Assembly: GCF_037948395.1 (NCBI RefSeq)
Contig: NZ_CP149940.1
Span: 1,178,001 to 1,242,000, forward strand
Length of the DNA stretch: 64,000 nucleotides
Direction: 5' to 3'
Source: Serratia nevei
GTDB lineage: Bacteria; Pseudomonadota; Gammaproteobacteria; Enterobacterales; Enterobacteriaceae
A program made the position numbers and the translations under genes. Of this stretch, positions 6,772-17,045 are shown one piece after another; the stretch's first letter is position 1, and each line of letters opens with the position of its first letter. The notes below the pieces were generated by a model. It saw only the letters and a program-made list of their open reading frames with translations. It was not told the origin of the DNA and did not search any database.

Positions 6772-7251
6772 TTACAGGCTTTTCAGCGCCTTGATGGTCT
6801 CATCCATATCGATCTCGTGCTCGGAGAAGGTATGGGTGGTGTTCTGGAAAGTGGTAATGGTCAGCATGCGCAGCGTTTGCATGGTCTGCGCCTGGTCTTC
6901 GGACTGCGGGCGAATGCGGTTCATCAGCAGGCCGACCGACAGCACGGTGTTCTCTTTATCCACGTCGGCTTTGACCGGCACTTCCTTGGTGAAAGTGTTG
7001 AAAGACTTGATGCTGGCGATCTTGATTCTTTCGTTGGCGATGATGATGTATTTGCTGGGCGCCAACACTTTGACCGCATAAGCCGACGGGCCTTTGGTGT
7101 TATTGGTCGGTTCGAAGGTCACCGCCGCATTTTTCTTAATCAGCTCCGGGTTCTGCACTTTAATCACGTGAAAATAACGATTTTCTCCGTTCTCGTCGGT
7201 AATAAAGCCGAAGCCTTTGTCTTCAAAAAAAGTCGTTATCTTGCCGTTCAT
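6772..7251 (-). CDS. Cold-shock-domain protein with uncharacterised C-terminal domain
   Basis: 159 residues from ATG at 7251; a GTG at 7263 in the same frame is possible but less well placed. Residues 1-65 form a cold-shock nucleic-acid-binding fold, with the RNP1-like stretch DKGFGFIT and a shortened RNP2-like RYFHV where CspA has VFVHF. The remaining 95 residues (YIIIANERIKIASIKSF onward) are a separate domain that I do not recognise; the alternating hydrophobic pattern suggests beta strands followed by helix. Ordinary Csp proteins have about 70 residues, so this is a fusion. It converges on the diguanylate cyclase (24 bp between stops) and is divergent from a VOC protein. An RNA- or ssDNA-binding role is inferred from the fold only. 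Confidence 0.7.
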   Translation of the reverse strand: MNGKITTFFEDKGFGFITDENGENRYFHVIKVQNPELIKKNAAVTFEPTNNTKGPSAYAVKVLAPSKYIIIANERIKIASIKSFNTFTKEVPVKADVDKENTVLSVGLLMNRIRPQSEDQAQTMQTLRMLTITTFQNTTHTFSEHEIDMDETIKALKSL

Positions 7252-7417
7252 CGCTATTCTCACAAAAGGGTTCTATACAGCGCTTATGATAGCGCGGAAT
7301 GCCTTGCAGCGACAGATTGCGCGGGCGGCATTTAGTCATGCGATAACGGCATTTAGCGGCTTTCTCCCCACATGCTATGTTCATGCTGACTTCATTCAAT
7401 GCGAAAAAGGAATAGCG

Positions 7418-7927
7418 ATGGGCATCAAACGTCTCAATCACGCCGTGCTGTATGTCAGCGACGTGCGGCAGAGCGCCGACTTTTATCATCAGGTGTTGGG
7501 GTTCAAGCTCAAGCCGTCCGACAGCCCCGATCGGGCGGTGTTTACCCAGGCCGCCGATTCGGACAACGATCACGATTTGGCGCTGTTCAGCAAGAACCTG
7601 GGCCAGCAGCGTGCCGGGGTATTTCGCGCCAACAACGAGCCGCCGGCGGAGCATGAGCCACCGGCCGGGCTGTACCATCTGGCCTGGGAAGTGGACAGCC
7701 TGGAGGAGCTGGAGCGCATTCGTCACCAGCTGGCTGAACGCGGCATTCTCGGGCTGGAAGAAGATCACGGCGTGCACAAAAGCATTTATGGCCACGATCC
7801 GGACGGGCTGCTGTTCGAGGTGACCTGGTTTATTCCGCCGGCGTTGCTGACCGAAGAGGACAAAAACCAGCAGGGGATCCGCCCGCTGGATTTCGCCGCC
7901 GAGAAACGGCGTTTCGCCGGCCGGTAA
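7418..7927 (+). CDS. VOC-family (glyoxalase/dioxygenase-fold) protein
   Basis: 169 residues from ATG at 7418, preceded by AAGGAA. It has the paired beta-alpha-beta-beta-beta modules of the vicinal oxygen chelate fold. Candidate metal ligands sit at the usual places: His in LNHAVLYV near the N-terminus, His in GLYHLAWEV, and Glu in GLLFEVTW near the C-terminus. This 2-His-1-Glu pattern is like extradiol dioxygenases (catechol 2,3-dioxygenase-like) as well as glyoxalase I. The reaction cannot be assigned. It is a single gene converging on the transporter cluster that ends at 7964. Confidence 0.8.
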   Translation: MGIKRLNHAVLYVSDVRQSADFYHQVLGFKLKPSDSPDRAVFTQAADSDNDHDLALFSKNLGQQRAGVFRANNEPPAEHEPPAGLYHLAWEVDSLEELERIRHQLAERGILGLEEDHGVHKSIYGHDPDGLLFEVTWFIPPALLTEEDKNQQGIRPLDFAAEKRRFAGR

Positions 7928-7963
7928 GCGGCTCGGGTACGGGGCGCCGCGGCGCCCCGACGA

Positions 7964-8791
7964 TCACAGCACTTTGTTGAGAAAGTTGACGGTGCGCGGA
8001 TGCTGCGGCTGAGCCAGCACTTGCCTGGCGTCGCCCTGCTCGACGATCTGCCCGTCGACCATAAATACCACCCGATCCGCCGCTTCGCGCGCAAAGCCGA
8101 TTTCATGGGTGACCACCACCAGCGTGACGCCCAGATCCGCCAACCCCTTTATCACGTCTAGCACTTCGCCGACCAGCTCGGGATCGAGCGCGGAGGTCGG
8201 TTCATCGAATAGGATCACCTTAGGGTTCAGCGCCAGCGCACGCGCGATGGCGATGCGCTGCTGTTGGCCGCCGGAGAGGTGGCGCGGGTAGGCGTCCGCC
8301 TTATGGCGCAGCCCGACGGTATCCAGCAGCTCATAGGCTACCGCTTTCGCCCGTTCGCGGGAGTGGATCTTGTGCACCACCGGCGCTTCGATGATGTTTT
8401 CCAGCACCGTCAGGTGCGGGAACAGGTTGAAATTCTGGAACACATAGCCGACGTTGATGCGTTGCCGAAGGATGGCCTTTTCCTTCAGCTCATACAGCCG
8501 GTTGCCCTTGCGGCGATATCCGACGTAGTCGCCGTCGATGCGGATAAAGCCTTCGTCCACGCGTTCCAGGTGGTTGATCGCCCGCAGCAGCGTCGACTTT
8601 CCGGAGCCGGAAGGGCCGAGGATCACGGTGACGGTGCCCGGCTGCAGCGTCAGGCTGACGTCGTCCAGCGCCTTGTGTTTGCCGAAGAACTTGCTGACGT
8701 TGCTGATTTCGATTAGGCCGCGCGCCGGCACTGGGGTGAGGTTGCGCGCCGGCTGCTCGGGCAAGGCGTAATAATCAATGGCTTCAGACAT
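7964..8791 (-). CDS. Amino-acid ABC transporter ATP-binding protein (YxeO/TcyN-like)
   Basis: 275 residues, cytoplasmic ATPase of a polar amino-acid importer. Walker A is GPSGSGKST, the Q-loop is in FQNFNLFPH, the signature is LSGGQQQR, and Walker B is [12 protein letters not shown] followed by the switch His in VVTHE. An AGGAG sequence lies 7 nt before the ATG. It has a roughly 25-residue N-terminal extension compared with GlnQ. It is the last gene of the six-gene minus-strand cluster that begins at 13881 and lies 9 bp after the permease, so it should energise uptake through that permease and the binding protein at 10256-11176. By gene content it corresponds to B. subtilis yxeO; the substrate is inferred, not seen. 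Confidence 0.9.
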
Positions 8792-8800
8792 GCGGGTCTC

Positions 8801-9688
8801 CTAACGTTTTAGCCAGCCGGCCAGTTTCTGCCAGGGCGTCGGCGGCAGTTCGCGCACCGCGCCTCGGGCGAAATAGCGCTCGATGTAGTATTGGATCACC
8901 GACAGCGCGGTGGTGATGAACAGATACCAGACGGTGGCGACCATCAGCAGCGGTATCACCTGCTGGGTGCGGTTATAGATAACCTGAATGGTATAAAACA
9001 GCTCCGGCAGCGCCAGCACGTAAACGATCGAGGTGCCTTTCGCCAGGCTGATGATCTCGTTGAAGCCGGTCGGAATGATGGAGCGCAGCGCCTGCGGCAG
9101 AATGATGCGGAAGGTGCGGCGATAGCCCGGCAGGCCCAGCGCCGCCGCCGCTTCGTGCTGGCCGTAATCCACGCCCAAAATGCCGCCGCGGATGATCTCG
9201 GCGGTGTAGGCGGACTGCACCAGCGTCAGGCCCAGCACCGCCACGGCGAATTGGCCGAGAATGTCGATGGTCGGATAGCTGGCGAACACCACGGAGGTGA
9301 AGGGAATGCCCAGCGAGATGGCGTCGTACAGGTAGGAAAAGTTGTACAGGATGATCAGCACCAGAATCAGCGGCAGCGAGCGAAACAGCCAGATATAACC
9401 CCAGGCGAGCGACGCCAACAGGTAAGAGCGCGACAGTCGCGCCAGCGCCAGCAGGGTACCGAACAGGATGCTGAACAGCGTGCCGAGCAGCGTCAGCAGC
9501 AGGGTTTGCCCCAGCCCCGCCAGCACCGCAGGCGCGAAGAACCACTCGGCGAACACGCCCCATTCCCAGCGCGCGTTGCCCGCCACCGATTGCACGATGG
9601 CGGCCAGAATAAACAGCGAAAACAGCGCGCCGATCAGCCGCAGCGGATAGCGGGCGGGCACCACTTTCAAGACGTCTTGTTTGGACAT
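8801..9688 (-). CDS. Amino-acid ABC transporter permease (YxeN-like)
   Basis: 295 residues of the HisM/GlnP permease family, an inner-membrane channel for polar amino acids. It has an N-terminal segment (LIGALFSLFILAAIVQ), then the core permease with about five membrane segments, and the EAA loop HEAAAALGLPGYRRTFRIILPQA that docks on the ATPase. Only one permease gene is present, so it would act as a homodimer. AGGAG is 7 nt before the ATG. It is followed by the ATPase gene and preceded by a GNAT gene 30 bp upstream in the same cluster. Confidence 0.9.
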   Translation of the reverse strand: MSKQDVLKVVPARYPLRLIGALFSLFILAAIVQSVAGNARWEWGVFAEWFFAPAVLAGLGQTLLLTLLGTLFSILFGTLLALARLSRSYLLASLAWGYIWLFRSLPLILVLIILYNFSYLYDAISLGIPFTSVVFASYPTIDILGQFAVAVLGLTLVQSAYTAEIIRGGILGVDYGQHEAAAALGLPGYRRTFRIILPQALRSIIPTGFNEIISLAKGTSIVYVLALPELFYTIQVIYNRTQQVIPLLMVATVWYLFITTALSVIQYYIERYFARGAVRELPPTPWQKLAGWLKR

Positions 9689-9718
9689 GTCATGTCTCCT
9701 GATACAGATAAAGGGGCC

Positions 9719-10246
9719 TTAGGCGATTTTCCTTTCCGACGCGCAACAACATGCGTCCTCTGCAATCAGGCTTTTGCGGAACGGCAGGCGGCCATCGTAG
9801 GGTGGGCGGCTGTAAACCTCGCTGTCGACGGTGGGATCGAACTGCGGCTGATACCCGTTGCTCAGATACAGGCCCACCGCTTCGGGCTGGCGAAAACCGG
9901 TGGTCAGATAGAGCCGGCGATATCCCTGCGCCAGCGCCAGCGTTTCGAGCTGCTGCAACACCCGCTGCGCCAGGCCCTGGCGCCGCAGATCGCCCCGCGT
10001 CCAGATGCGCTTCAGCTCGGCGGTTTGTGCGTCATAGCGTTTGAAGGCGCCCATGGCGATCGGTGCACCGGCGCGCAGCAGCACGATGAAGGCCCCCTGC
10101 GGCGGCGCGTACAGATCCAGCGGTTCCGGTTCCTGGTCACCAAAATAGTCGCCGTAACGCTGGCGATATTCGCCGAACAGCCCCTCGATTACCGGGGCGA
10201 TCAGCGGGTCGGTCGGCAGCGTCTGAATGAAGGTGTCTTGCGTCAT
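9719..10246 (-). CDS. GNAT N-acetyltransferase (YxeL/SndA-like by context)
   Basis: 175 residues with the GCN5-related acetyltransferase fold. The acetyl-CoA pyrophosphate loop reads WTRGDLRRQGLAQRVLQ (R/Q-x-x-G-x-A), followed by YRRLYLTTG and EAVGLYLSNGYQP. It starts 9 bp after the binding-protein gene with AGGAG upstream, so it is translationally close to it. Inside an operon with an amino-acid importer, a flavin monooxygenase and an M20 hydrolase, the likely task is N-acetylation of the imported S-modified cysteine, as described for the Bacillus yxe and ytm operons. That substrate is an inference from context; the fold is clear. Confidence 0.83.
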   Translation of the reverse strand: MTQDTFIQTLPTDPLIAPVIEGLFGEYRQRYGDYFGDQEPEPLDLYAPPQGAFIVLLRAGAPIAMGAFKRYDAQTAELKRIWTRGDLRRQGLAQRVLQQLETLALAQGYRRLYLTTGFRQPEAVGLYLSNGYQPQFDPTVDSEVYSRPPYDGRLPFRKSLIAEDACCCASERKIA

Positions 10247-10255
10247 CGCGCGCTC

Positions 10256-11176
10256 CTAGTCGCCCAGGCCGGGCGGGTTGATTTCCGACTGCGCAAGGCG
10301 TTCGACGCTCTCGCCCCAGCGGTTGAGCACCCGATCGTACTGCCCGCCGCGGATCGCGCCGTTCAGCGCTTCGTTCACCGCCTGCACCAGGCCGTTGCCT
10401 TTACGGGTGGTGACGGCGATGTGCGCCGCCTTGGGCCAACCGCCTTCCACCGTGCCCGCCAGCCGGGTGCGGCCGTTCAGCGCCGCTTTATAGGCGCCCA
10501 GCACGTTCGGCCCGAAGTAGGCGTCGGCCCGGCCGGATTGGATCGCCAGCGTGGCGGCCGCATCGTCGGTCACGTAGATCGGCTGGAAGGGTTTAAGCCC
10601 CTGCTGCCGATTCTGCTTGTCCCATGCCAGCAAGATGGCTTCCTGATTGGTGCCGGAGCCGACGATAATTTTTAATCCGGCGATATCGGCAGGCTGTTTG
10701 ATCGTCGCGATCTTGCCGCCGGTTTTGACATAAAAGCCGAGCGAGTCGATGCGGTAGGTGGCGAAGTCGAAGCGGGTTTTGCGCTCTTTGGTCACGGTGA
10801 CGTTAGTGATGGCCGCGTCATACTTGCCGGAAACCACCCCCAGCGGCCAGTCTTCCCACGAGGTTTGCACCACGTTAAGCGTTAGGCCCAGGCTGTCGGC
10901 CACCAGCTGTGCGATATCCACTTCGCTGCCGATCAGTCGCCGGTTGTCGGCGGCGAACAGCGCCAGCGGCGGCGTGTTGAGTGCGGCGATCGCGACGGTG
11001 AATTGGCCCGGCTTCACGAAGTGGAAATCGGCCGGCAGTTTGGCGATCGCCTGCGGGTTTTTCGGCGCGTGGATCGGGGTTTCATTGGCCTGCAAATCGA
11101 TGCCGGTGCCCGCCAGTGCGGCGCCGGTCAGGCTCAGCAAGGCCGCCACGAGGGCGGCGGTAACGGTTTTCTGCAT
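10256..11176 (-). CDS. Periplasmic amino-acid-binding protein (YxeM-like)
   Basis: 306 residues. It has a Sec signal peptide (MQKTVTAALVAALLSLTGAALA, cleavage about residue 22) and a family-3 solute-binding domain: FTVAIAALNTPPLALF, GSEVDIAQLVADSLGL, KYDAAITNVTVTKERKTRFDF, then a second lobe with GSGTNQEAILLAW. The usual Arg that holds the substrate carboxylate falls in the TKERK stretch. It collects an amino acid or close derivative for the permease and ATPase encoded downstream. The upstream gene is the flavin monooxygenase, 26 bp away. The ligand is not determined. Confidence 0.9.
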   Translation of the reverse strand: MQKTVTAALVAALLSLTGAALAGTGIDLQANETPIHAPKNPQAIAKLPADFHFVKPGQFTVAIAALNTPPLALFAADNRRLIGSEVDIAQLVADSLGLTLNVVQTSWEDWPLGVVSGKYDAAITNVTVTKERKTRFDFATYRIDSLGFYVKTGGKIATIKQPADIAGLKIIVGSGTNQEAILLAWDKQNRQQGLKPFQPIYVTDDAAATLAIQSGRADAYFGPNVLGAYKAALNGRTRLAGTVEGGWPKAAHIAVTTRKGNGLVQAVNEALNGAIRGGQYDRVLNRWGESVERLAQSEINPPGLGD

Positions 11177-11202
11177 AGCGGGTATCCCTGAAAGCGATCT
11201 TA

Positions 11203-12528
11203 TTATTGGGTGAATCTGTTCAACGGGCGCTTCAGGCCCAGGTGCTCGCGCAGCGTGTCGCCGTGGTACGCCTGGCGGAACAGGCCACGTTGTTGCAGGA
11301 CGGGCACCACCCGATCGACGAAGTGGCCGAAGGCGTTGGGCGTACCGCCGCTGATGATGAAACCGTCGGCGGCTTCGCCGTCGAACCAGCGCTGCAGACC
11401 GTCCGCCACCGCTTCCGGCGTGCCGCTGAACACCGGGCGCGGCGAGGCGGCTTCCAGCGCCACCTGGCGCAGCGTGAGGTTGCGCTCGCGGGCGCTGCGC
11501 TTGATGGCGTCGGTGGTGCTGCGGAAGCTGTTTTGCCCCAGATCGCCGATGTCCGGGAAGGGCGCGTCCAGCGGATGGCGGGCGAAGTCGTAATGCTCGA
11601 AGTAGCGGCCGAGGTAGTTGAGGGCGTTCTCGATGCTGACCAGGCGGGCGGTTTCCTGGTACTGGCGCTCGACGTCCGCGTCGTCGTCGCCGACGATCAC
11701 GCTGACGCCCTGGAAGATGCGCAGATCGTCCGGTTCGCGCCCCTGTTCCACCAGCTGCCGCTTCACGTCCTGATAGAAATCCTGCGCCTGTTCCAGCGTG
11801 TCGTGATGGGTGAAGATCGCATCGGCGTGTTGGGCCGCCAGCCGTTTGCCGTCTTCAGAGGCGCCGGCCTGGAACAGGATCGGGCGCCCCTGCGGCGTGC
11901 GGCCGATGTTCAGCGGCCCCTGTACCGAGAAGAACTCCCCCTGGTGATTGAGAGTGTGCAGTTTGCCGGTGCGGAAGAATTCGCCGCTGGCTTTATTACG
12001 CACGAAGGCATCGTCTTCCCAGGAGTCCCACAGCCCTTTGGCGACGTCGAGAAACTCGCCGGCGATGCGGTAACGCAGGCTGTGTTCCGGGTGTTCTGTG
12101 CGCGAGAAGTTTTTGGCCGAGCCTTCCAGCGGCGACGTCACCACGTTCCAGCCGGCACGGCCGTTGCTCAGGTGATCGAGGCTGGCGAACTGGCGGGCGA
12201 CGGTGAACGGATCGCTGTAGGAGGTGGAGAGGGTGCCCACCAGGCCGATTTTGTCGGTGGCGGCGGACAGCGCGGCCAGCAGGGTGAGCGGTTCGAAACG
12301 ATTAAGAAAATGCGGAATGGATTTTTCGTTGATATATAACCCATCGGCGACGAAGACGAAATCGAATTTTCCCTGTTCGGCTTTTTTCGCCGAGGCGATA
12401 TTAAATTCGAGGTTAATGCTGGCGTCGGCGGTGGCGTCCGGGTGGCGCCAGGCGGACATATTTCCCGATGCGCCATGCAGAATGGCGCCCAGGCGCAATT
12501 GCCGTTGATTATTCGCGTTGTCGCTCAT
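11203..12528 (-). CDS. LLM-class flavin-dependent monooxygenase (NtaA/SnaA/DszA group, YxeK-like)
   Basis: 441 residues. This is a two-component FMNH2-dependent monooxygenase of the luciferase-like superfamily. The NtaA/SnaA/DszA group is recognised by [19 protein letters not shown] near the N-terminus, GWNVVTS (phosphate or flavin contact), [11 protein letters not shown] and the C-terminal [17 protein letters not shown]. Members oxidise C-S, C-N or Baeyer-Villiger substrates with reduced flavin from a separate reductase; no reductase is encoded in this cluster. In Bacillus the homologous YxeK/CmoO cleaves N-acetylated S-alkyl or S-succinyl cysteines. An AGGA lies 8 nt before the ATG. The 189-bp gap to the upstream M20 gene contains a terminator-like hairpin. 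Confidence 0.87.
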
Positions 12529-12672
12529 CGTGATTATCCTGTCATGCGCTGCAGAGGCGCGCGGTGTCTGATGGGTTCACTATTGATGAGCGGCGGCGGG
12601 ATGTAAAACAACAAAACAGCATATTCAAATGTTGAAAACTGCAAATATCACGGCGGGTAAAAATAATAGGGC

Positions 12673-12698
12673 CCGACGCGGCATGTGCGGCGTCGGGG
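12673..12698 (-). terminator. Hairpin terminator between the M20 and monooxygenase genes
   Basis: An 8-bp stem, CCCGACGC/GCGTCGGG (12673-12680 and 12691-12698), is followed on the minus strand by CCCTATTATTTTTA. It could stop or attenuate transcription from the M20 gene, so the five genes downstream may also have their own promoter in 12529-12670. Confidence 0.5.
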
Positions 12699-12717
12699 AA
12701 ATAATATGTTCCGTTAT

Positions 12718-13881
12718 TCAGGCGTTGCTGAGGGCTTTTTCTGGCGCGGTGGTTAATTGTTGCAGCGTGCGTTCCGCCAGCAGCGTGAAATATTGCGCCG
12801 CCGGGAACAGGGCCCGTTCATCGGGATTGAAACGCGGATGATGCAGGCCGAACTCGCTGGCGGATCCGATGCTGACAAATACGCCCGGTACGTGATGCAG
12901 ATACAGCGCGAAATCTTCACCGCCCATCTGCAACTCCGCTTCTTCGACCCGGTAGCCGGCCTCGGCGGCGACGGTTTTGCTGAACGCCGCCCAATGCGGG
13001 TCATTGATCACCGCCGGCGGCCCCGGCTGCCAGCGCAGTTCGGCCTGCGCACCCAGCGCGGCGGCTATGCCGTCGATCACCTGGCGAATCTTGTCCGGCA
13101 CCTGGCGGCGCACCGCGTCGCTGTGGGTGCGCACCGTGCCTTCCAGCTCCACGGTTTGCGGCAGCACGTTCCAGGTATTGCCGCCTTCGATGCGCGTTAC
13201 GCTTACCACCAGCGATTCCAGCGAGCTGAAGCTGCGGCTGGGCAGCGTCTGCAGCGCGCCGACGAGCTGGCTGGCGGTGACGATGGTGTCGACGCCCTGT
13301 TCCGGTTTGGCGGCGTGCGCGCCCTTGCCGGTGATGAGGATCTGGAAGCGATCGACGTTGGCGTAGAACGGCCCGGCGCGGGTGGCGAAGGTGCCGGTGG
13401 GCAGCTCCGGCGCATTATGCAGGCCAAACACCGCGGCGACGTTATCCAGCGCGCCGGCGTCGATCAGGTGTCGGGCGCCGTTGAAGGTCTCTTCCGCCGG
13501 CTGGAAGAAGAGGCGTACCGTGCCGGGCAGGTCGGCCTCACGCGCTTTCAACAGGTGTGCGGCGCCGAGCATCACCGAGGTATGAAAGTCGTGGCCGCAG
13601 GCGTGCATCACGCCGCGGTTTTGCGAGCTGAAGGGCACGTCGGCGATTTCGTCGATCGGGAGAGCGTCAATGTCGCCGCGCAGCGCGATGATCGGCCCCT
13701 TGCCGCTGCCGATCTCCGCCACGACGCCGGTTTTCAGCGCCAGCGGCAGCAGGCGAATGCCCGCTTCTTGCAGCCAGCGCGTCAGCCGGGCGGTGGTGGC
13801 GAATTCGTGATTGGAAAGCTCCGGGTTTTGGTGCAGCTCACGCCGATAGGCGATGATTTTGTCTGCCAACTGGCTGGTCAT
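12718..13881 (-). CDS. M20 family amidohydrolase/deacetylase (YxeP/SndB-like)
   Basis: 387 residues, a cytoplasmic metal-dependent N-acyl-amino-acid hydrolase of the M20D group (hippurate hydrolase, IAA-amino acid hydrolase, YxeP). Metal ligands and catalytic residues are seen in order: ALRGDIDALPI, MHACGHDFHTSVMLGAA, FQPAEE (Glu-Glu), FGLHN and the C-terminal GGEDFALYLHHVPG. A lid dimerisation domain lies between about residues 180 and 295. It is the first gene of the cluster and would remove the acetyl group to release the free amino acid, for example cysteine after oxidative cleavage (inference). The Shine-Dalgarno sequence is weak. It is divergent from cspE. Confidence 0.88.
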   Translation of the reverse strand: MTSQLADKIIAYRRELHQNPELSNHEFATTARLTRWLQEAGIRLLPLALKTGVVAEIGSGKGPIIALRGDIDALPIDEIADVPFSSQNRGVMHACGHDFHTSVMLGAAHLLKAREADLPGTVRLFFQPAEETFNGARHLIDAGALDNVAAVFGLHNAPELPTGTFATRAGPFYANVDRFQILITGKGAHAAKPEQGVDTIVTASQLVGALQTLPSRSFSSLESLVVSVTRIEGGNTWNVLPQTVELEGTVRTHSDAVRRQVPDKIRQVIDGIAAALGAQAELRWQPGPPAVINDPHWAAFSKTVAAEAGYRVEEAELQMGGEDFALYLHHVPGVFVSIGSASEFGLHHPRFNPDERALFPAAQYFTLLAERTLQQLTTAPEKALSNA

Positions 13882-14149
13882 AGGCTTGGCTCACAGTGGG
13901 AAATAAACCCTAACCCTAGTGCAGCGGCCGCCGAAGCAAAAAGACCATCTGGTTATATTTCATAGCGATTGCGTCTGCGCGGGAGCGTCAACTCTGGGGG
14001 AAGCGGGCGAGTTTGGGCGTTCGCTCGTTGTTCGCCGGCGCGTGGAGAGGATTGACCTGGCACGGTAACTTATCGCAACCGGTGCAATCAATTTACACCG
14101 GACAACACGGATTTTTTCACTCTTTATCGGATTTCTGTGATCGCGGTGG

Positions 14150-14178
14150 TGGACAAAATCCTGCCTGCTTGCTGTACT
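14150..14178 (+). promoter_or_regulatory. Putative cspE promoter
   Basis: TGGACA (14150-14155) and TGTACT (14173-14178) are 17 bp apart and resemble sigma-70 elements. The predicted leader is about 43 nt and opens with a small hairpin, GACACA/TGTGTC (14185-14201). The rest of the 346-bp gap between the M20 gene and cspE shows nothing else I can name. Confidence 0.45.
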
Positions 14179-14227
14179 GTAATAGACACAGGTTTTGTGT
14201 CTTTCATTCACGTTAAAGGTAAGTTTG

Positions 14228-14437
14228 ATGTCTAAGATTAAAGGTAGCGTTAAGTGGTTTAATGAATCCAAAGGCTTCGGTTTCATTACTCCGGAAGATG
14301 GTAGCAAGGACGTTTTCGTTCACTTCTCTGCCATCGTTAGCAACGGTTTCAAAACGCTTGCTGAAGGCCAGCGTGTAGAATTTGAAATCACGAACGGTGC
14401 CAAAGGCCCATCTGCCGCTAACGTTACTGCTATCTAA
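14228..14437 (+). CDS. cspE: Cold-shock-like protein CspE
   Basis: 69 residues, a single cold-shock domain almost identical to E. coli Csp[22 protein letters not shown] at the start, RNP1 KGFGFIT, RNP2 DVFVHFSAI, and [10 protein letters not shown] at the end. It binds single-stranded RNA, melts secondary structure and acts as a transcription antiterminator; CspE is expressed at normal temperature in E. coli. The gene lies near crcB and tatE as in E. coli, which separates it from the very similar cspC. AAAGGTAAG precedes the ATG. A bidirectional terminator follows at 14461-14484. Confidence 0.93.
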
Positions 14438-14460
14438 GCTGCGTAGCTGAATTTCTTAAA

Positions 14461-14484
14461 ACCCGCTCATTGAGCGGGTTTTTT
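14461..14484 (+). terminator. Terminator of cspE, bidirectional
   Basis: ACCCGCTCA-T-TGAGCGGGT (14461-14479) is followed by TTTTT. On the opposite strand the hairpin is followed by TTTTAAG, so it can also serve the MFS gene that ends at 14495. Confidence 0.85.
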
Positions 14485-14494
14485 ATTGGGCGCG

Positions 14495-15685
14495 TTATGC
14501 CTCGCTGCGGCGGCCTAACAGGCTGAACAGCAGGATGGCGACGGCGTAGCAGCCGACGATGGTCAGCGCCATCGACAAGCTGGACGTGCCGCCCAGCCCG
14601 GTGAGCGGCACGGCGCAGGCACCGAGCGCGAACATGCACACGCCGATCAAGGCCGACGCGCTGCCCGCTTTGTCACCCTGGCTTTGCATGGCCAGCGAAG
14701 AGGCGGTTGGGCCGACGATGCCGATCACCGCCACCGAAAAGAACAGCGGCACCAGCAACAACACCAGCGGCGCATGCAGCGCGGCGGCCAACAGCAGCAA
14801 CAGCGATGCGACGGCCGCCAGCGTTAACCCACTCCTCAACACCCGGCGCTCCCCCCAACGCGAACTGAGGCGGCTGGCCAGCTGCGCCGCAATGATCAGC
14901 CCGACGCCGTTAATGGCGAAACACAGGCTGAACATCTGCGGGCTGAGGCCGTAGATCTGCTGCAAGACGAAAGGCGAGGCGCCGATATAGGCGAACATGC
15001 CGGCCATCACGAAGCCCTGCGTCAGACACAGGCCCATGAAATAGCGTTGGGTCAACAGACTGCCCAGCGACATCAGCATCGCCAGAATGCCGCCCTGGCT
15101 GCGGCGCTCGGCCGGCAGGGACTCGCGCAGCTTCAGCGCCGACAGGCTGAACAGCAGCACGGCGATGGCCGCCAGCACGCCGAAGATGCCGCGCCAGTTC
15201 ATCACCTGCAGCATAACGCCGCCCAGCACCGGCGCGACGATCGGCGCCAGACCGTTGACCAGCATCAGCAGGGCGAAGAAGCGGGTCAGCTCATGACCGG
15301 CATACAGATCGCGGGCAATGGCGCGGGAAATCACCGCGCCACCGGCGCCGGCGATGCCCTGCAGCAGGCGGGCGATCAGCAACTGGTCGATGGTGGGCGC
15401 CAGCGCGCACCACAGCGAAGCGCCCAGCAGCAGGATCAGCGACAGCAACAGCGGACGCATGCGGCCCAGTTTGTCGCTGTAAGGACCGAAAATCAGCTGG
15501 CCGACGCCCAGGCCGAGCAGCCCGGCGGTCAGGCTGAGCTGCGCGGCGGCGGTAGAGGTATTCAGTTCGCCCGCCATTTCCGGCAGGGCGGGCAGATAGA
15601 GATCGGTGCACAGCGGCCCCAGCGCGGCCAACAGGCCAAGCACGACGGCGTACACCAGACGTTGTCTGGCTAAGTGTTTGGTCAT
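14495..15685 (-). CDS. Bcr/CflA family multidrug MFS exporter
   Basis: 396 residues with 12 predicted membrane segments in the inner membrane. The segment 2-3 loop reads FGPYSDKLGRMRPLL, and RLLQGIAGAGGAVISRAIARDLYAG in the segment 4-5 region is typical of the Bcr/CflA (DHA1) drug:proton antiporters. It starts 6 bp after the stop of a TetR-type repressor on the same strand, so the two form an operon in which the repressor likely controls the pump. The substrate is not known; relatives export bicyclomycin, sulfonamides or chloramphenicol. Confidence 0.88.
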   Translation of the reverse strand: MTKHLARQRLVYAVVLGLLAALGPLCTDLYLPALPEMAGELNTSTAAAQLSLTAGLLGLGVGQLIFGPYSDKLGRMRPLLLSLILLLGASLWCALAPTIDQLLIARLLQGIAGAGGAVISRAIARDLYAGHELTRFFALLMLVNGLAPIVAPVLGGVMLQVMNWRGIFGVLAAIAVLLFSLSALKLRESLPAERRSQGGILAMLMSLGSLLTQRYFMGLCLTQGFVMAGMFAYIGASPFVLQQIYGLSPQMFSLCFAINGVGLIIAAQLASRLSSRWGERRVLRSGLTLAAVASLLLLLAAALHAPLVLLLVPLFFSVAVIGIVGPTASSLAMQSQGDKAGSASALIGVCMFALGACAVPLTGLGGTSSLSMALTIVGCYAVAILLFSLLGRRSEA

Positions 15686-15691
15686 GGGAGA

Positions 15692-16288
15692 TTAGAGTTT
15701 CCTGAACAGGTGAGAAATGGCCTGCTGATACAGATCGCGCAGCAGGGACGCATCGGCTTTTTGCGTGGTAAGGATGCGGTAACCGGTGCCTTCGCTCATG
15801 ACGGCGATAAACTCCACCCGCGCGGCGATCTCTTCCGCGCTGAAATGGGGATACAGCCGCTGCAGGTTGTGGCACACGTGGCGAAACAGCCGCGCTTCCG
15901 CATCGCTGAGCATTTTGGCCACCACCGGGTTGCGCGTGGCCTCGGCGGTCACTTCAAGCATCAGCATGTGATCGGTTTCGCTCTCGCCCGGCTGCTGAAA
16001 CAGCGTGCGCGCCGCCAGCGTGCCGGCGATCAGGTTGATGTGATCGCCAAGATTTTCCAGCCGCTGCATCTTGCTGGCGATGATGCGGTTGACGATTTCC
16101 TCGATAATCGCGTCTTTATTGGCGAAATAGCGATAGATTTGCCCGACGCTGAGCTGCGAGCCCTGGGCGATTTCCGCCATGCTGGCGGCGTGGAAGCCGT
16201 GGCGGCGGAAGCTGGTTTTCGCCGCTTCGACGATCTGATCGCGGCGGGCCTGCACCTTGGCCTGTTTACTGTCGTTGGGGGGGAGCAT
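15692..16288 (-). CDS. TetR-family repressor, first gene of pump operon
   Basis: 198 residues. Residues about 15-60 are the TetR helix-turn-helix (RDQIVEAAKTSFRRHGFHAASMAEIAQGSQLSVGQIYRYFANKD); the rest is an all-helical ligand-binding domain. AGGA lies 9 nt before the ATG. Just upstream are an inverted repeat and a short perfect palindrome at 16319-16345 that suit an operator, so the repressor probably controls itself and the exporter downstream. The ligand is unknown. Confidence 0.88.
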   Translation of the reverse strand: MLPPNDSKQAKVQARRDQIVEAAKTSFRRHGFHAASMAEIAQGSQLSVGQIYRYFANKDAIIEEIVNRIIASKMQRLENLGDHINLIAGTLAARTLFQQPGESETDHMLMLEVTAEATRNPVVAKMLSDAEARLFRHVCHNLQRLYPHFSAEEIAARVEFIAVMSEGTGYRILTTQKADASLLRDLYQQAISHLFRKL

Positions 16289-16318
16289 TTGCCCGATCCT
16301 TTGCTACGCGTGAGCCGG

Positions 16319-16345
16319 GTTCACATTTTTGGGTGTGAACGTTCA
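16319..16345. promoter_or_regulatory. Probable TetR operator
   Basis: The inverted repeat GTTCACA-N8-TGTGAAC (16319-16325, 16334-16340) overlaps the perfect 10-bp palindrome TGAACGTTCA (16336-16345), 31-57 bp upstream of the TetR start codon at 16288. Palindromes of this kind are common TetR-family operators. Confidence 0.55.
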
Positions 16346-16410
16346 TTCTCAATTGTAGTGCAATCGGCCGGAAAGGCGCAAGATGAACGCGTGCTGTGGG
16401 GAAAAGGCGC

Positions 16411-16506
16411 TTAAGCGAACAGGTAGGATTTGATAAAGGCGGCGACGATCAGCACGCACAGCGCAACGGCAATCGCTTCGGTGGCGGTTTTCGGCAGGCT
16501 AAACAT
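16411..16506 (-). CDS. 31-residue hydrophobic membrane microprotein
   Basis: A small open frame from ATG at 16506 encodes MFSLPKTATEAIAVALCV followed by LIVAAFIKSYLFA. Residues about 9-29 form one transmembrane helix, with charged residues at K6, E10 and K26. I do not recognise a named family. GGATGAGA lies 7-8 nt upstream as a Shine-Dalgarno-like sequence, inside the 3' arm of a perfect hairpin. It lies 71 bp downstream of crcB on the same strand and 122 bp upstream of the TetR gene. It could share the fluoride-controlled crcB transcript or have its own promoter. It is real as an open frame; expression is unproven. Confidence 0.55.
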   Translation of the reverse strand: MFSLPKTATEAIAVALCVLIVAAFIKSYLFA

Positions 16507-16515
16507 AGCGGTTTC

Positions 16516-16540
16516 TCATCCAGTCAGGAGTACTGGATGA
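16516..16540 (-). promoter_or_regulatory. Perfect 9-bp hairpin in the leader of the microprotein
   Basis: TCATCCAGT-N7-ACTGGATGA (16516-16524, 16532-16540) is a perfect dyad 10 bp before the ATG at 16506. Its 3' arm on the minus-strand RNA contains GGAUGA, the only ribosome-binding-like sequence. No U-run follows, so a terminator is unlikely. It may control translation or bind a protein. Confidence 0.45.
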
Positions 16541-16577
16541 GATTATGCGCATGCAAGATTAAGGAAACATTAAGGGC

Positions 16578-16961
16578 TTAGCGCCCGTTGACCCACATCA
16601 CCAGCATGAAAGCCAGCAGCGTCATCGCCAGCGAGCCGGCCAGGTTGAGCAGCATGTTGGCCAGCGCCCAGCCGAAGCGGCCATCCTGCATCAGGTACAC
16701 CACCTCCAGCGAAAAGGTGGAGAAGGTGGTCAGGCCGCCGCAGAACCCGGTGGTGATCAGTAATTTCCAGGTGGGGTCCAGATGCGTCATGCGGGTGAAA
16801 ATCGCCATCGCCAGGCCGATGATAAAACCGCCGATCAGATTGACCATCAGCGTACCGAGCGGAATGTGGGCGTTCAGCGGATTCATTTTCATGCTTACCG
16901 CCCAGCGCAAAACGCTGCCGACGCCGCCGCCGATAAATACGGCCAGTAAAGAGCTCAACAT
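16578..16961 (-). CDS. crcB: Fluoride exporter CrcB/Fluc
   Basis: 127 residues from ATG at 16961, exactly the E. coli length; an upstream in-frame ATG at 16979 is less likely. It is a small inner-membrane protein with four membrane helices that assembles as an antiparallel dimer to form two fluoride-specific channels. Family motifs are [12 protein letters not shown] at the N-terminus, [14 protein letters not shown] (pore Asn) and [15 protein letters not shown] (Thr-Phe-Ser-Thr-Phe track). The gene is preceded by a fluoride riboswitch at 17046-17094, which raises expression when fluoride is present. The single gene encodes a homodimer, with no second copy seen. Confidence 0.95.
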
Positions 16962-17045
16962 GGGGCAACTACCTTTCAATCAGAGAAATTCACGGGGCTC
17001 GGAAAGAGACAGGCGTAACGCTACGCGCCTCTCTCCGAGAGGTTA

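Follow-up and report, generated by a model that had tools for sequence, protein, structure and literature searches.

Which sulfur compound is handled by six adjacent minus-strand genes at positions 7964-13881 of a 64,000-nucleotide stretch of Serratia nevei DNA (hereafter, the window)? The initial annotation took them for a Gram-negative version of the Bacillus subtilis yxeKLMNOP genes, recovering cysteine from S-(2-succino)cysteine (2SC) and related adducts; the substrate of the yxe (or scm) operon is N-acetyl-2SC (PMC9706529; this and the papers below are cited from excerpts). Our analyses point to another, known route, i.e. the cluster most probably encodes the proteins for uptake, acetylation, C-S cleavage, and deacetylation in the CmoO/CmoJ pathway of S-alkylcysteine salvage, with CmoO encoded 1.5 Mb away at a split locus that is not visible from the window. 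Observed in support of this reading are gene content, orthology of CmoJ and CmoO, co-occurrence of their genes, linkage in relatives, and purifying selection. The six genes are, in order of transcription:

12718-13881, minus strand: M20 amidohydrolase, probable N-acetylcysteine deacetylase (best PDB match 1ysj, YxeP, 396 bits)
11203-12528, minus strand: CmoJ-type C-S monooxygenase dependent on flavin mononucleotide (FMN), a luciferase-like monooxygenase (LLM), assigned by TIGR03860, PDB match to YtnJ/MoxC, identity, tree, and diagnostic columns
10256-11176, minus strand: family-3 solute-binding protein (PF00497)
9719-10246, minus strand: GNAT acetyltransferase, probably N-acetylating S-substituted cysteine (PF00583)
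8801-9688, minus strand: permease of an amino-acid ATP-binding cassette (ABC) transporter (PF00528; best NCBIfam model cystine permease, under cut-off)
7964-8791, minus strand: ATPase of an amino-acid ABC transporter (PF00005; best NCBIfam model TcyN cystine ATPase, under cut-off)

The list of open reading frames (ORFs) agrees with the annotation on this arrangement, each frame being ATG-started and intact, with gaps of 189, 26, 9, 30, and 9 bases from the M20 gene to the ATPase gene. Pfam matches likewise agree with the protein families it named, and the monooxygenase clears the TIGR03860 cut-off (544 vs. 279.7 bits). The genome, of 5.46 Mb, has one full-length copy of the monooxygenase gene.

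Affinities of the monooxygenase and its companions

The best solved structure for the window monooxygenase in a PDB search is B. subtilis YtnJ/MoxC (588 bits). We take YtnJ to be CmoJ, and YtmO to be CmoO; in the B. velezensis locus (L129), a protein 83% identical to YtnJ comes after TcyN and an LLM protein. Identity of the window enzyme reaches 57% with B. subtilis CmoJ and 56% with that of B. velezensis, compared with 49% for YxeK of B. mojavensis (L035), which served as the YxeK reference, B. subtilis 168 itself not being among the fetched loci. The yxe operons were taken from a genome collection because YxeK was unnamed among the 23 PDB matches, and the scan covered the best 80 of 588 YxeP relatives, so that the Bacillota rows were picked by nearness to YxeP. 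At 49% to this reference, the enzyme narrowly misses the >50% identity to B. subtilis YxeK by which a close homologue is defined (excerpt of PMC9706529).

A 91-row tree, which includes, in addition to the window, 5 of the 25 Serratia orthologues fetched and leaves out L031-L034 (duplicates of L133-L135 and L138), groups the enzyme with B. subtilis CmoJ in a clade of 61 rows (SH-aLRT support, a likelihood-ratio branch test, of 100), with the YxeK rows outside. Comparison of 42 CmoJ-side rows with CmoO (Enterobacterales L119 and L133 excluded) against 11 YxeK rows yielded 23 columns that separate CmoJ from YxeK. At these the window carries 20 CmoJ states, 1 YxeK state, and 2 that are neither, counts identical to those of B. 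subtilis CmoJ; the corresponding figures for YxeK-like proteins are 6, 10, and 7 in other Serratia (L131), 7, 9, and 7 in Erwinia persicina (L123), and 3, 12, and 8 in a Brevibacillus (L055). At four of the columns the residues are H22, H71, H109, and R155 in YxeK and G, I, T, and I in both CmoJ and the window; our guess is that these YxeK residues bind the succinyl carboxylates. By identity, tree, and diagnostic columns the enzyme is nearer CmoJ than YxeK, i.e. as judged from sequence it is a CmoJ-type sulfoxide C-S monooxygenase. Among the matches listed, the closest database protein carries the name Serratia marcescens (97%). A 557-residue relative (P0002) scores 960 bits at just 72% BLAST identity, a combination that suggests an irregular gene model or a fusion.

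The M20 enzyme is 49% identical to B. mojavensis YxeP, 61% to its counterpart in the CmoO-bearing cluster of Pantoea, and 39% to that of the Rhizobium cluster. Its likeness to YxeP is no pointer to 2SC, because in B. subtilis the deacetylation of N-acetylcysteine is redundant among ScmP (YxeP), YhaA, and YtnL (excerpt of PMC12757645). The GNAT is 58% identical to the Pantoea and 51% to the Rhizobium cluster GNAT, with no match to YxeL or YtmI (blastp, E 1e-3). A GNAT and an M20 enzyme stand beside the CmoJ-type gene, both similar to counterparts in CmoO-bearing clusters. The binding protein matches YxeM weakly (25% over 151 residues, E 8e-4) and is 67% and 57% identical to the pair of binding proteins in the Pantoea cluster; the permease is 29% and the ATPase 49% identical to their yxe counterparts (ATPase 47% to TcyN), and the layout of one binding protein and one permease fits YxeMNO. 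By eye, the ORF list holds no YxeQ (MmgE/PrpD-like) frame around the cluster; a YxeQ probe matched L035-L043, L123, L131, and L132.

Comparison of proteins, rather than of domains as in the initial annotation, changes the assignment: the M20 enzyme has YxeP as its best solved structure, the monooxygenase sides with CmoJ, and the GNAT with neither YxeL nor YtmI. The claim of a gene set shared with yxeKLMNOP holds for domains and fails for orthology (no YxeL match, weak YxeM, no YxeQ, and a CmoJ-nearer monooxygenase). There is good support for salvage of S-modified cysteines, but not for the yxeK-type identity or the 2SC substrate.

CmoO and its linkage to the monooxygenase

We find the CmoO orthologue on the plus strand of genome contig C1 (2689276-2690262; L128:9277-10263), so that CmoO is encoded but unlinked. 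It scores 341 bits against a TIGR03558 cut-off of 167 and shares 59% identity with CmoO of the Pantoea cluster and 36% with the other TIGR03558 protein of this genome over the cut-off. No CmoO gene occurs in or beside the cluster, and a remnant search (tblastn with two CmoO proteins over window positions 7000-17000) gave a best E of 0.18; a decayed remnant adjoining the operon was rejected, as these matches are at chance level.

Among 30 sampled Serratia genomes, 26 carry the monooxygenase and the same 26 carry CmoO, whereas four genomes of 1.5-3.6 Mb have neither. The two genes are never near each other in the 26: they share a contig at a distance of at least 1.35 Mb (contig coordinates) in 15 and are on different contigs in 11. 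Selection was assessed by comparing this genome with 7 of the 25 further Serratia genomes that carry the monooxygenase, a sample also used for the upstream alignments below. The ratio of nonsynonymous to synonymous substitution (dN/dS) is 0.034-0.131 for CmoO over the seven comparisons and, for those cluster genes that a genome has, 0.008-0.115; both CmoO and the six-gene cluster are under purifying selection in Serratia. The binding-protein gene is missing from the locus in five of these seven genomes. Across the 26 monooxygenase-bearing genomes, an orthologue of the binding protein (at least 86% identical) is present in 14 and missing in 12, e.g. in G016, whose monooxygenase is nonetheless 98% identical, and two paralogues (65-69%) occur elsewhere in every genome.

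In an order-wide set of 394 genomes, the monooxygenase (E 1e-140) occurs in 24 and CmoO (E 1e-60) in 23, all of them within the 24, and in none of the other 370 (Fisher P = 2e-36, kinship not corrected for). In the 21 of these 23 genomes that are not Serratia, CmoO is no more than 3 kb from a monooxygenase. A single run of seven genes is found in 19 of them; G256 has the complete set at a second locus (L162), and in G066 no M20 gene was seen. The pathway genes occur in all 26 sampled Serratia genomes of at least 4.9 Mb, and in 12-13 of the 118 sampled genera of the order.

Of 79 monooxygenases in the fetched loci, 49 score nearer CmoJ or the window and 30 nearer YxeK. A CmoO-family gene is within 7 kb of 43 of the former, with only a YxeL-like gene in 1 and neither in 5; on the YxeK side, YxeQ or YxeL without CmoO accompanies 14, CmoO 6, and neither 10.

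The gene order of the cluster, from M20 to ATPase, is identical in Pantoea agglomerans (L119; monooxygenase 76% identical to the window's) and in a second genus of the same family (L133). In P. agglomerans the six genes are preceded by an MsnO8-family LLM oxidoreductase of TIGR03558, the family of B. velezensis CmoO. Agrobacterium vitis (L121) and Rhizobium ruizarguesonis (L122) have the same gene set as Serratia, with a CmoO-family gene adjoining the monooxygenase. All four loci differ from that of Serratia by an in-cluster CmoO and a second binding protein, and L121 and L122 also by a permease-ATPase fusion. The Serratia genome resembles the B. subtilis-type cmo system in having a CmoJ-type monooxygenase (57%), a GNAT, an M20 deacetylase, and an ABC transporter for amino acids, together with a CmoO-family sulfoxidase, and it differs in that its GNAT is not recognisable as YtmI and its CmoO is unlinked. 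Relative to B. velezensis L129, which has two binding proteins, two permeases, and a likely LysR gene upstream (by eye), the Serratia cluster has one binding protein, one permease, and no adjacent LysR gene. The B. mojavensis yxe/scm operon resembles it in domain set and M20 enzyme (49%) but has a 49%-identical monooxygenase, and its YxeL and YxeQ are without Serratia counterpart.

A separate YxeK-like monooxygenase, sharing 44-46% identity with that of the window, occurs in other members of the genus, at least 15 of the 30 genomes by the matches listed. In the two loci inspected (L131:8103-10777 and L132:8600-11261), it adjoins a YxeQ homologue and an ABC transporter. The locus shares the protein family and a transporter with the window cluster and differs by a monooxygenase nearer YxeK, the adjoining YxeQ homologue, and no GNAT or M20 gene found beside it. 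Within Serratia, it is a stronger candidate for the breakdown of 2SC; no locus of this type was found in the present genome. On an Erwinia rhapontici plasmid (L120, 3329-10338), a 72%-identical CmoJ-type monooxygenase has as neighbours a GNAT and an ABC transporter that is of a different type, with two permeases, and no CmoO or M20 gene was found close by.

The proposed pathway and its rivals

In the published scheme, S-alkylcysteine is acetylated, sulfoxidized by CmoO, and cleaved by CmoJ at the sulfoxide C-S bond to a sulfenic acid, which is reduced before deacetylation (excerpt of PMC10863075); the cmo operon genes are named cmoOIJ (excerpt of PMC6323116). By homology, the ABC transporter of Serratia would import S-alkyl- (or S-aryl-) cysteine, which the GNAT would N-acetylate, and the unlinked CmoO would turn the thioether into a sulfoxide. 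The CmoJ-type enzyme, with reduced FMN (FMNH2) and O2, would cut the C-S bond of the sulfoxide, giving N-acetylcysteine sulfenic acid along with an aldehyde. Reduction of the sulfenic acid may fall to cellular thiols or a glutaredoxin, after which the M20 enzyme would free cysteine. CmoI is glutaredoxin-like. As for FMNH2, the cluster indeed has no FMN reductase, as first noted, but the genome has one of SsuE type (310 bits; cut-off 225), near which a gene for alkanesulfonate monooxygenase is found; the SsuE-type enzyme or a general flavin reductase could be the source.

Several points weigh against this assignment. The enzymatic steps, their order, the substrate range, and the FMNH2 supply are all drawn from homology, and because CmoO is unlinked in Serratia we can only infer its joint use with the cluster; in 11 of the 26 genomes the two genes are on different assembly contigs. 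Placement in the CmoJ clade depends on a quick tree method, the careful search being unfinished, and the diagnostic-column test is mildly circular because the rows were partly sorted by score to the window. Of ScmP (YxeP), YhaA, and YtnL/SndA, the M20 enzyme was compared with YxeP, and the GNAT is not recognisably YtmI. Linkage is also imperfect: six of the YxeK-nearer monooxygenases have CmoO within 7 kb, CmoJ-like genes stand without adjoining CmoO at L120, L157, L160, and L163, and G304 carries the full cluster with no CmoO at E 1e-60. This last genome, a draft assembly (L161, L157), has a complete monooxygenase, M20, binding-protein, GNAT, permease, and ATPase locus and is a natural CmoO-less case.

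Were the cluster a Gram-negative yxe/scm operon, its monooxygenase would be YxeK and would convert N-acetyl-2SC to oxaloacetate and N-acetylcysteine. The domain set, the transporter layout with a single binding protein and a single permease, the best PDB match of the M20 enzyme, and 49% identity to YxeK would fit, but we consider this quite improbable given a monooxygenase nearer CmoJ in identity, tree, and columns (including the G, I, T, and I above) and just short of the published YxeK criterion (PMC9706529, excerpt), a GNAT that is not YxeL-like, the absence of YxeQ from the locus, and CmoO in 23 of the 24 monooxygenase genomes. The 2SC route through YxeK was accordingly rejected on identity, tree, diagnostic columns, and gene context. 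A 2SC route through a lyase (2SL) in place of YxeK was also rejected, since the genome has no spare PF00206 gene: there are four, none in the cluster, presumably fumC, aspA, argH, and purB. Very improbable is a different organosulfur or aminopolycarboxylate substrate (of NtaA, EmoA, or DszA type), with the GNAT and M20 enzyme acting on other acylated amino acids. It draws on the family name NtaA/DmoA and on 3sdo, the next PDB relative after the YtnJ/MoxC entries (499 bits), deposited as a nitrilotriacetate monooxygenase, a name behind which we know of no assay; yet DszA (294 bits), dimethyl sulfide monooxygenase (241), and EDTA monooxygenase (216) score far below YtnJ, and the GNAT, M20, and CmoO context would be left unexplained.

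A subtler alternative keeps CmoJ and dispenses with CmoO. Plants contain methiin and alliin, and the operon might act on such ready-made cysteine sulfoxides, the distant CmoO serving only thioether sources. CmoJ does take the sulfoxide as substrate (excerpt of PMC10863075), CmoO is outside the operon in all 26 sampled monooxygenase-bearing Serratia, and G304 does without it. However, CmoO is retained in 26 of 26 genomes and is under purifying selection in seven comparisons, which suggests that it is normally needed, and sulfoxide uptake and acetylation would be an assumption; we consider this reading unlikely. A related proposal, rather unlikely in our view, is that Serratia has two modules: the operon alone for cysteine sulfoxides such as methiin and alliin, and the distant CmoO, apparently under an element common to the ssuE promoter, which would add thioethers, including mercapturate-type conjugates, under sulfate starvation.

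If the favored CmoO/CmoJ assignment is right, these bacteria could obtain cysteine from S-alkylated, possibly drug- or plant-derived, cysteine conjugates, and a gene 1.5 Mb away would be needed for the same growth phenotype. The pathway is described as widely distributed in soil bacteria (excerpt of PMC10863075); among the matches listed in the open-licence literature, which does not include the two primary pathway papers, there is no description of a CmoO/CmoJ or yxe-type cluster in Serratia. The comparison also corrects a plausible yxeK/2SC label that is probably wrong and provides a way to tell CmoJ-type from YxeK-type clusters.

Upstream elements and flanking genes

The 15-base pattern GCGCATATCNAAATC has exactly two sites in the genome, upstream of ssuE (C1:1828481) and of CmoO (C1:2689160), the motif having been selected after sight of these two sites. 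Its four one-mismatch sites are all inside predicted reading frames, and a reversed control pattern has none. The shorter form GCATATCNAAATY occurs at 55 places in 13 Serratia genomes, compared with 8 for its reversed control, and, going by coordinates, every one of the 13 except G012 has such a site some 100 bases ahead of CmoO. Among 30 of these places that were fetched, 5 are just upstream of ssuE, 5 of CmoO, 18 in a reading frame, and 2 elsewhere. We treat the pattern as a regulatory lead only, and it is a guess that CysB or Cbl might control the loci. Transcriptomes of S. marcescens in relation to sulfate availability are reported in PMC6687942. A 19-base motif built from the upstream blocks of the M20 and CmoO genes gave nothing convincing, and a promoter and terminator scan of 7700-14500 gave 1 promoter-like site (1.8 expected) and 9 terminator-like sites (7.5 expected). 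Alignment of eight Serratia loci reveals one nearly invariant block:

13936-13970, minus strand: 35-base block upstream of the M20 gene, predicted as a possible regulator site

A thiol or electrophile link to the nearby quinone reductase and aldo-keto reductase (AKR) genes had also been suggested. All 8 Serratia loci have the quinone reductase gene and none of the 29 from other genera does; an AKR gene occurs in 2 of those 29 (at 36%). The loci reach some 5-9 kb from the monooxygenase. Because the two genes are rare or missing there, this neighbourhood looks like Serratia synteny, and the link was rejected.

A cold-shock-protein-like ORF (14228-14437, plus strand, counted from its MSKIKGS methionine and named by eye) is divergent to the M20 gene. 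The region between them is upstream of both and is partly conserved in Serratia.

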